Shown here one piece after another: positions 7,831 through 9,630 of a stretch of 9,630 nucleotides of DNA. Made by a program: the position numbers and the translations under genes. The notes beneath the pieces are model-generated. The model searched no databases and was not told where the DNA came from. It was given only the letters and a program-made list of their open reading frames with translations. Source of the stretch: Micrococcales bacterium (GTDB lineage Bacteria; Actinomycetota; Actinomycetes; Actinomycetales; Cellulomonadaceae); NCBI GenBank assembly GCA_009783975.1, contig WRCL01000038.1, positions 1 to 9,630 on the forward strand, read 5' to 3'. Each line of letters starts with the position of its first letter. Position 1 is the first letter of the stretch.

Positions 7831-8175
7831 GTGATCGTCGCGGTGGGTGTCGACGTCGTCGACATGGACCGGTTCGCTGCCAGCCTCGTGCGTGTTCCCC
7901 GGCTGCGTGACCGGCTGTTCACCGCAGACGAACGTCACCTGCCCGACCAGTCGCTGGCTGCCCGTTTCGCCGCGAAAGAAGCCGTGGCCAAAGCCCTCGG
8001 GGCGCCGGGGGACCTGCGCTGGCACGACTGCGCTGTGACGTCCGGTGGGCCACCGGCGTTGCTGCTCACCGGTACCGTCGCGGCGCGCGCCGCCGAGCTC
8101 GGGATCACCTGCTGGCACCTGTCGTTGTCCCACGACGGTGGCCTCGCTGTGGCCTTCGTCGTCGCCGAACGCTGA
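7831..8175 (+). CDS. acpS: Holo-[acyl-carrier-protein] synthase
   Basis: AcpS transfers 4'-phosphopantetheine from CoA to a serine of acyl carrier protein, activating fatty-acid synthesis. The product is 114 aa, typical of the small trimeric AcpS type. Mg ligands are visible in [10 protein letters not shown] (6-15, D8) and [14 protein letters not shown] (44-57, E50). The C-terminal [17 protein letters not shown] (97-113) is the usual ending. The GTG at 7831 has GGAGG 5 nt upstream and follows the glmS stop by 26 bp, so the two are probably one operon. In many actinobacteria acpS is followed by a NAD(P)H-hydrate repair gene (nnr) and alr; here none follows within the window. Confidence 0.95.
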
Positions 8176-8220
8176 CCAGCGACGAACTCACACGATCAGG
8201 GGATGTATGCCCGCGATGGG

Positions 8221-8236
8221 TGTGACAAATACCACA
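8221..8236. promoter_or_regulatory. CRP/GlxR-like operator
   Basis: The 16-bp site TGTGACAAATACCACA matches the CRP-family consensus TGTGA-N6-TCACA at 9 of 10 defined positions. With one extra base on each side it forms GTGTG-N8-CACAC. It sits 45 bp after acpS and about 60 bp before the structured region that starts at 8291. It is far from the next protein gene (8700). A factor of the Crp/GlxR type would be the expected binder; none is encoded in the window. Confidence 0.4.
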
Positions 8237-8290
8237 CTGGCAGGGAAGGGTCCAGGTGAGCGGGGGTGAAGGGATGTTCTGGCTTGGCCT

Positions 8291-8604
8291 CGTCGAGTGC
8301 CGCGGTTGCCGGAGCCAGTAATGCGTGGCAGTCTCGCCGATAGCCGGACGACGTGTGGGCTTATCCCTGGCGGCGGCCTGGCCACGGCGGTGCGCAGCGC
8401 GCCGTGGCTGGTCTTGCTGGTACCAGGCACACAAGTGCAGCGTGGGAACGACGGGTGCAGCACGAGAACACTGTCGTCCTGGCGATGGCCGGGAGCCGCG
8501 TGCCCGGTCGCCTCCGCCGAGGCTGGTGCCACAAGCCGACGGCGACGAGTCCGGCTGGGTCGGCTCCGGGATCCAGCCGGACTCATGGCGCGGCAGGCTC
8601 GTCG
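8291..8604 (+). ncRNA. Candidate structured noncoding RNA, no known family recognised
   Basis: A long-range helix closes the region: 8294-8297 with 8598-8601 and 8298-8304 with 8589-8595 (11 bp around a 2-nt bulge), plus 8291-8292 with 8603-8604. Inside are local stems: 8314-8317/8326-8329; 8335-8347/8367-8375 (9 bp with a bulge); 8378-8389/8400-8411 (12 bp, two wobbles); palindrome CTGGTACCAG 8417-8426; 8427-8430/8435-8438; 8445-8454/8471-8479 (9 bp, one bulge); 8486-8493/8503-8510 (8 bp, two wobbles); 8515-8527/8531-8544 (11 bp in three short helices); and 8547-8561/8570-8584 (15 bp, one wobble). Non-Watson-Crick pairs are G-T on this strand, favouring + transcription. Motifs of RNase P RNA, tmRNA, SRP RNA and group II introns were not seen. 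No open frame keeps coding-like codon use throughout. The fold was made by hand. Confidence 0.45.
8547..8584. repeat. 15-bp inverted repeat (strong hairpin)
   Basis: The arms 8547-8558 and 8573-8584 (GAGTCCGGCTGG / CCAGCCGGACTC) are perfect over 12 bp. The stem continues inward by 8559-8561/8570-8572 (one G-T), leaving an 8-nt loop. The palindrome gives both strands misleading coding-like codon use. No T tract follows on either strand. It is the last internal stem of the candidate RNA, but it could also be a U-less actinobacterial terminator for acpS or for an RNA. Confidence 0.75.
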
Positions 8605-8699
8605 CGGTCATCATCTGACAAAGATGTAGTTATGCCGCCCGTGTCCGGAAATGACTCTCTCGGGTGGCTTGTATCACCAACGTCATACAGACTCGACGG
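8605..8699. other. Less GC-rich stretch before the DUF4041 gene
   Basis: This 95-bp stretch is visibly richer in A and T than its surroundings. A small hairpin (CATCT 8612-8616 with AGATG 8622-8626) is followed by TAGTTAT and could mark a transcript end. CTGACA at 8615-8620 resembles a -35 box, but no -10 box lies at a normal distance. The promoter of the next gene is probably here, yet no convincing pair was found. Confidence 0.35.
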
Positions 8700-9630
8700 G
8701 TGAGTATCGCACTGCCGGACGAACCCCAGCACCCGCCAGCCAGGTTCTTCGGGGCCCGGGCGCACGCCAAACGCCTGGAGGCCGAGAACCACCGGCTGCG
8801 CACGACGCTCGAACAGCTCGACGGGCTGGGCCTGGCCGAGATCCGTGATGTCGTCACCCAGGCCCGCGACGCCGTCGCGGCGCTGACCGAGCAGGTGGCC
8901 ACGACGCAGGCCGAGCTGGAGCAGGCCCAGGCTGAGCTGCTCGACGTGCGCAGCCAGGTGACCGTCCAGCACCGGGGGCTGTACGACTTCGAGCACCCAG
9001 CCGAAGACTCATCACACCTGGCGACCCGGTTGTCGCAGGTCCGTGAACGGATCCACCGGTCGGTCGCCCGCGGCGACGCCGTCGTCGCGGCGAGCAGGAT
9101 CCGCCTGAACCGCCGTGCGAGGGCTGTCGTGGCCACCGAGCTGCCCGCACAGCTGTCGGCGCTGGCGCTGGCGGCGTACGACGCTGAGGCTGAGAACGCG
9201 ATCCACACCGTCGAGCCGGGCCGGCTCGACGTCGCACGTGCACGCCTGGACCGGTTCGCCTCGACCGTCGAGACATGCGGACGTCTGGTGGACCTGCGGA
9301 TCGACGCCGAGTACCACCGCCTGCGCACGACCGAGCTTGAGCTGGCGGCCCAGCACGCAGTCGTCCTGGCCAGTGAGGCCGAGACCGAACGTGCCCACCG
9401 CGCTGGCCTGCACGAGGCGAGCCAGGTCGCCGAGCAGCTGCGCCACGAACGCAGCCTGCTCGAGCACGACCGTGAGCACTGTTCTGCCGCCCTGGCCGTC
9501 GCCCACGCCCGTGGTGACGCCGAGGAGACCGAACGCCACGTCGCGCGCCTGGCCGAGCTCGACCAGGCCCTGGCGGCGACCGCCCGGCGCACCGTCGACC
9601 AACGCGCTGGGTACGTGTACGTCATCTCCA
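8700..9630 (+). CDS. DUF4041 coiled-coil protein entering a GIY-YIG nuclease-like domain (partial)
   Basis: The frame is open from 8655 to the right edge; 310 residues are visible from the GTG at 8700 and the C-terminus is missing. Order: a short lead; FFGARAHAKRLEAEN (16-30) opening a coiled coil to about 90; the DUF4041 core with GLYDFEHP (93-100), AYDAEAENAI (159-168) and EYHRLRTTELELA (204-216); a second charged helical segment (about 217-302); then GYVYVIS (304-310). The last motif is how the GIY-YIG domain (T5orf172/Mug113 type) starts in DUF4041 proteins. Family members occur in phages, mobile regions and many genomes; their function is not settled, though nucleic-acid cleavage is plausible. 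The GTG at 8664 is an alternative start. Neither start has a Shine-Dalgarno. Codon use matches the neighbours, so transfer, if any, was from a similar genome. Confidence 0.85.
   Translation, partial: MSIALPDEPQHPPARFFGARAHAKRLEAENHRLRTTLEQLDGLGLAEIRDVVTQARDAVAALTEQVATTQAELEQAQAELLDVRSQVTVQHRGLYDFEHPAEDSSHLATRLSQVRERIHRSVARGDAVVAASRIRLNRRARAVVATELPAQLSALALAAYDAEAENAIHTVEPGRLDVARARLDRFASTVETCGRLVDLRIDAEYHRLRTTELELAAQHAVVLASEAETERAHRAGLHEASQVAEQLRHERSLLEHDREHCSAALAVAHARGDAEETERHVARLAELDQALAATARRTVDQRAGYVYVIS

Follow-up and report, generated by a model that had tools for sequence, protein, structure and literature searches.

A conserved structured element, a candidate noncoding RNA, in four related actinobacterial genomes, three of which carry it directly before a SNIPE homologue

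In type III toxin–antitoxin systems an RNA antitoxin with tandem repeats is encoded just ahead of a nuclease gene that may be toxic to its own cell. The locus described here resembles them in that a candidate structured RNA lies directly before such a gene in three of the four genomes that carry it, but differs in having no tandem repeat array save a weak one of 23 nt and 2.1 copies at the edge of a variable insert (8366–8388), in a fourth genome (G084) where element and nuclease gene lie apart, and in a nuclease that belongs to a DNA nuclease family. That nuclease is a homologue of SNIPE, described in the accessible part of PMC13190303 as a membrane-bound antiphage nuclease whose Escherichia coli form is highly toxic without its transmembrane domain unless the nuclease is mutated. 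According to the same part of that paper, SNIPE homologues have one predicted transmembrane domain in 59% of cases, two in 7% and none in 34%, and no noncoding RNA is mentioned with SNIPE there. Candidate structured RNAs from comparative genomics, as presented in the accessible parts of PMC2864571 and PMC8632094, are likewise conserved, covarying intergenic RNAs upstream of genes; the present element differs from these in being confined, in the scans made, to four species of one genus and in having no threshold match in Rfam 15.

The stretch of DNA analysed (the window) is one whole 9630-nt contig from a genome that is 68% complete. Its genes, named by Pfam, encode ribosomal proteins L13 and S9, phosphoglucomutase, a deformylase, an amidotransferase-like frame, a VTT protein, a PRK-type kinase on the minus strand, and then glmS and acpS, followed by a gap and a DUF4041 gene. 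The preliminary description had placed a 524-bp gene-free gap here, and its limits hold, from the acpS stop codon at 8173–8175 to a GTG start codon at 8700. PADLOC assigns the DUF4041 protein to PD-Lambda-1, with E-values of 7.2e-71 in G004, 1.6e-67 in G083 and 2.4e-24 for the cut window copy. The G004 and G083 proteins join DUF4041 to GIY-YIG domains (T5orf172, MUG113); in the window DUF4041 is present and the contig end removes most of GIY-YIG. Four further proteins (P0002 and P0004–P0006) share 70–79% identity with the G004 SNIPE. Contig C363 starts with a frame (G000:C363:1-234) 85% identical to residues 343–420 of the G004 SNIPE protein and is probably the missing end of the window gene, which is cut at 9629–9630.

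The gap contains a conserved element (Table 1) which we judge, with a probability of roughly one half, to be transcribed from the plus strand as its own noncoding RNA that acts in trans through the loop of its hairpin P5. A second copy was found in G004 by blastn, and the similarity reaches upstream to position 8220, in a block over which window and either relative, G004 or G083, are about 72–73% alike. A DUF4041 search of the genus (81 genomes), which returned 14 loci in 13 genomes, revealed the third copy in G083, and the fourth, a more distant one in G084, came to light through a covariance model built on the 3′ core (43 bits, E 6.5e-6). This model places the element in 4 of the 221 genomes of the family; its one further match, a weak one, falls on the reverse strand of the G083 copy. 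A signature drawn up for the 5′ half once the four copies were known matches the same 4 of 221 genomes, and its reversed control pattern matched 0 among the listed genomes. The signature occurs once in each positive genome, unlike a multi-copy repeat of the MITE or REP kind, and the window's own genome, at 68% completeness, holds one blastn match to the element.

Table 1. Features of the window around the conserved element (window coordinates).
Feature	Positions	Strand	Basis or state
acpS, upstream neighbour	7834..8175	+	PF01648; match 7834-8172
Upstream block; possible 5′ extension or promoter region	8220..8293	+	blastn of 8220-8374 against G004 and G083
Conserved structured element, candidate noncoding RNA, whole	8294..8587	+	copies in G004, G083 and G084; alignments
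Hairpin P1, signature GTTGCCGG...GTGNNAG...CCGATAG	8294..8341	+	three-copy consensus fold, three broken cells; signature in 4/221 family genomes
Helix P2, arms 8346-8357 / 8469-8479, variable insert in loop	8346..8479	+	consensus fold
Variable insert, 94 nt, in P2 loop; includes 12-bp hairpin 8380-8408	8370..8463	+	alignments
Hairpin P3, inner stem 8487-8509	8481..8512	+	one broken cell in window copy
Hairpin P4	8514..8545	+	four pairs broken in window copy
15-bp hairpin P5	8547..8584	+	60/60 cells paired, four copies
P5 loop, 8 nt, GGCUCCGG	8562..8569	+	identical in 4/4 copies
3′ strand of earlier-proposed closing helix (5′ strand 8294-8304)	8589..8602	+	not conserved
Promoter-like block directly 5′ of SNIPE start codon	8650..8699	+	32-33/50 columns identical to block before G084 SNIPE
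SNIPE (PD-Lambda-1) homologue, cut by contig end	8700..9630	+	DUF4041; PADLOC PD-Lambda-1 E 2.4e-24

Wider searches support a narrow range. A scan of 394 genomes of the class matched the window's own genome only, and a covariance scan of 396 genomes of the order returned the own genome together with two matches of 28–29 bits (E 0.006–0.007 per genome), which were set aside as being about the chance expectation over 396 genomes and which, from their sequence, may be coding. Short blastn matches in 13 of the 15 positive genomes of one search and 11 of the 14 of another were put down to chance; two from the second search were inspected. Upstream of SNIPE elsewhere in the order, blastn found no element in the 29 loci besides the window's own (30 loci from 39 positive genomes); phage and plasmid records gave no blastn match to it, and viral contigs gave 0 matches to four of its DNA patterns and no SNIPE relative (three pattern matches, none confirmed). 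In a GlmS tree of 31 rows from the 81 genus genomes, rooted at the midpoint, the four element-bearing genomes lie on one side of a 97/91 branch, with G084 branching first among them; the evidence base is small, four copies from one clade. Rfam 15 at gathering thresholds gave 0 matches in the window, a relaxed search of 8100–8720 gave SNORA17, gyrA and P37 only (E 2.1–9.9, all sub-threshold), Rfam on loci L190–L192 gave two sub-threshold matches, neither at the element, and ARAGORN reported 0 tRNA or tmRNA genes. The absence of a recognised family from the preliminary description thus stands at the Rfam threshold, and narrow searches of the open-licence literature, one of them built on a guessed genus name, returned no description of such an RNA. 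Measured against Rfam, the element is a new RNA family with a narrow range; as a structured bacterial noncoding RNA it belongs to a known general kind.

The anatomy of the element differs from the self-closing, multi-branched RNA that had been proposed, in which an 11-bp long-range helix encloses the other stems. All of the listed stems are present in the sequence and the long-range closure appears in the minimum-energy fold of the window, but it is not conserved: its 3′ strand lies in unconserved DNA, and the longest contiguous helix that the 5′ segment forms with the next 120 nt beyond P5 measures 8, 11, 6 and 8 bp across the four genomes, each time in an unrelated position. Consensus folding of the three close copies (window, G004 and G083) gives instead five hairpins in a row, P1–P5, with the loop of P2 housing a variable insert. 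The 94-nt insert accounts for the length difference between window and G083; it is missing from G083 and G084, and G004 has a shorter, different version. A 12-bp hairpin in the original reading sits inside this insert and is present in the window but not conserved, while the three packed 3′ hairpins, P3, P4 and P5, recur in relatives. P2 and P3 are not recognisable in G084, which, like the four broken pairs of P4 in the window copy, counts against the model. Pseudoknots joining the P3 or P5 loop to the 5′ segment were attractive by eye and weak against shuffles, with P values of 0.0125, 0.11, 0.017 and 0.22 for the P5 loop, whose best partner in G004 lies at another place, and 0.17, 0.08 and 0.11 for the P3 loop, whose pseudoknot is absent in G084.

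Compensatory change is concentrated in P5. The 15-bp hairpin is paired in every copy: G084 has two double changes from U-A to C-G, G083 one change from G-U to A-U, and the loop is the same in all four. Over the four genomes the whole model pairs 150 of 158 cells (95%, against at most 52% for slid structures) and four of its pairs are changed on both sides, a number reached by 7 of 500 shuffles, all counted on an alignment whose guiding structure came from three of its own rows. Two of these double-changed pairs fall outside P5 and each has a broken cell in another genome; the double change in the model's helix 1 falls where the three-copy consensus fold pairs differently. P1–P3 show no both-sided change in the three close copies. 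P2 has one-sided, pairing-preserving changes in G004 (C-G to U-G and G-C to G-U), and P3 is mostly invariant and therefore offers little test of its pairing. Clean covariation thus belongs to P5 only and comes through one distant copy, that of G084; the other helices are little tested.

The genes next to the element bear on whether it acts alone. The element stands directly before SNIPE in the window, G004 and G083, with acpS upstream in the window and G083 and cell-wall-anchor-type genes, with no acpS match, upstream in G004; nnr, alr and tsaE follow SNIPE in G004 and G083, and nnr is absent from the window contig. In G084 the element lies about 55–60 nt before nnr and both SNIPE genes of that genome are on other contigs, so that the element does not always precede the same gene. 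A cis-acting leader, the 5′ untranslated part of the SNIPE or nnr mRNA acting, for instance, through attenuation or occlusion of the ribosome site, would explain why the element shares the orientation of the downstream gene in all four genomes, with the end of P5 about 115 (window), 179 (G004), 152 (G083) and 55–60 nt (G084) before the start codon, and tight control would suit a nuclease that is potentially toxic (accessible part of PMC13190303). The element is nonetheless unlikely to be the leader of one gene, because the G084 copy precedes nnr while SNIPE lies on other contigs. The stretch from P5 to the start codon is also variable in length and poorly conserved except for its last 50 nt. 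Within those 50 nt, positions 8663–8699 (GGTGGCT...GTCATACAGA) are shared with the block before a G084 SNIPE gene that has no such RNA beside it, and may be a SNIPE promoter or operator. An AnGAT motif likewise stands a few bases before the nnr start in 12 of 12 upstream strings compared (14 loci), and the 11 nnr loci compared from outside the clade have a short gap before nnr and no such element. SNIPE and nnr therefore carry conserved, promoter-like blocks near their starts at loci that lack the element, and with these points on the other side we regard the leader reading as doubtful, though a serious competitor.

A stand-alone RNA acting in trans is favoured because the element precedes different genes and because SNIPE and nnr keep promoter-like blocks of their own where it is missing. 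We infer that the element is probably transcribed, that it is independent of the gene after it, and that it would act by way of its loop. The element would be transcribed from the plus strand, and the exposed, invariant P5 loop GGCUCCGG would be the likely site of contact; candidate targets would be the adaptor-less SNIPE protein or its mRNA, or another mRNA able to pair with GGCUCCGG.

The strand and the junction itself are relevant to a reading at the level of DNA, in which the inverted repeats form a protein-binding or integration site at the acpS–nnr junction, or an unusual terminator of acpS. Such a site would suit P5, a near-perfect inverted repeat with most positions invariant, and a junction whose gene content differs between genomes. 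Read as RNA, however, the plus strand pairs 150 of 158 cells and the minus strand 135, and G-U cells outnumber A-C cells by 17 to 2, which favours a plus-strand RNA, as the G-T mismatches in the preliminary description had suggested, and fits a single-stranded molecule better than a DNA site. A scan of 8120–8760, covering for terminators G+C-rich stems followed by a T run, found no promoter (no sigma-70-like site) and no T-run terminator. Both absences count against a separate transcript, and the second also against an acpS terminator. The three close copies further share stems and unpaired blocks besides P5, and we consider a DNA-level function quite improbable.

The acpS–nnr junction (L114, L115 and L194, with acpS loci L129–L156) varies in its contents, which include SNIPE, the cell-wall-anchor-type genes of G004, an antitoxin/PIN-toxin-like pair in G084 named by eye, and in other genus members an LLM-like oxidoreductase gene, also named by eye. 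An AbiEi antitoxin domain (E 1.4e-22) is encoded in G083 by a plus-strand frame (L114 4859–5878) that is set two genes away from SNIPE, between nnr and alr, and overlaps the alr start on the opposite strand. The same genome shows by eye, between SNIPE and nnr (L114 ~7849–7940), a long inverted repeat exceeding 20 bp, which is possibly a two-way terminator.

Conservation separates the element from its surroundings. The 3′ core (8461–8590) is 87, 83 and 85% identical among the three close copies and is more conserved than the adjoining SNIPE coding sequence, whose first 930 nt are 76, 73 and 74% identical in the same comparisons; coding windows of 126 nt as conserved as the core number 0, 0 and 16 of 268. 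The core carries indels of 1 and 4 nt, and the insert and the DNA 3′ of P5 have diverged beyond alignment. A protein-coding reading was rejected: five ORFs over the gap have no Pfam match, the G004 copy has a stop in each of the six frames across the region, and no frame is open through it in all three close copies.

The interval proposed at the outset folds at −175 kcal/mol against a dinucleotide-shuffle mean of −158.9 (z −2.69, 1 of 100 as good), and the opposite strand reaches z −1.98 (3 of 100 as good); the excess in this one sequence is moderate and, taken alone, no more than suggestive. All four cores beat their shuffles (z −2.4, −3.1, −4.3 and −4.2), but so does the minus strand in three of the four copies, which counts against the model. 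A reading as chance stems of GC-rich intergenic DNA, kept alike by close kinship only, would fit the moderate window-only excess and a set of copies drawn from one clade; it is very improbable and largely refuted by conservation above that of the adjoining coding gene and by compensatory changes, next to stretches (the insert and the DNA past P5) that no longer align. The suggestion that the interval may be a new actinobacterial RNA is borne out as to conservation, structure and the absence of an Rfam family, in an anatomy other than the one first drawn.

The N-termini of the SNIPE proteins differ within the genus. In the RNA-bearing clade a simple hydropathy scale shows no hydrophobic stretch over the first 150 residues, and Pfam gives no N-terminal adaptor that passes the cut-off, with weak sub-cut-off coiled-coil matches only; by hydropathy they would thus depart from the membrane-bound SNIPE, although a predicted transmembrane domain does not define the 34% of homologues that have none (accessible part of PMC13190303). 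Over the 14 SNIPE loci of the genus, the N-termini carry DUF2510 in six, TerD in one and a Trp/Pro-rich region with no Pfam match in three (by eye), and four are adaptor-less. The DUF2510 (6 loci) and TerD (1) adaptors, at loci L102–L108, are not named in the accessible part of PMC13190303, and two of the 14 SNIPE genes look broken (L107 and L108: internal stop; frame break). All four adaptor-less proteins occur in the four RNA-bearing genomes, one of which, G084, encodes a further SNIPE with a Trp/Pro-rich N-terminus, so that the same 4 among the 81 genomes of the genus have both the element and an adaptor-less SNIPE; common ancestry could by itself account for that, and we therefore treat it as a lead and not as proof.

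One use for a stand-alone RNA would be to keep the soluble, adaptor-less SNIPE off host DNA until phage DNA enters, by occupying the positively charged DUF4041 surface or by limiting synthesis. We regard this as a long shot because the co-occurrence comes from one clade and because in G084 element and SNIPE lie apart. The element would add an RNA family with no Rfam 15 match, whose 15-bp hairpin covaries and whose loop is invariant, and it raises for SNIPE the question of how anchorless homologues avoid cutting host DNA.
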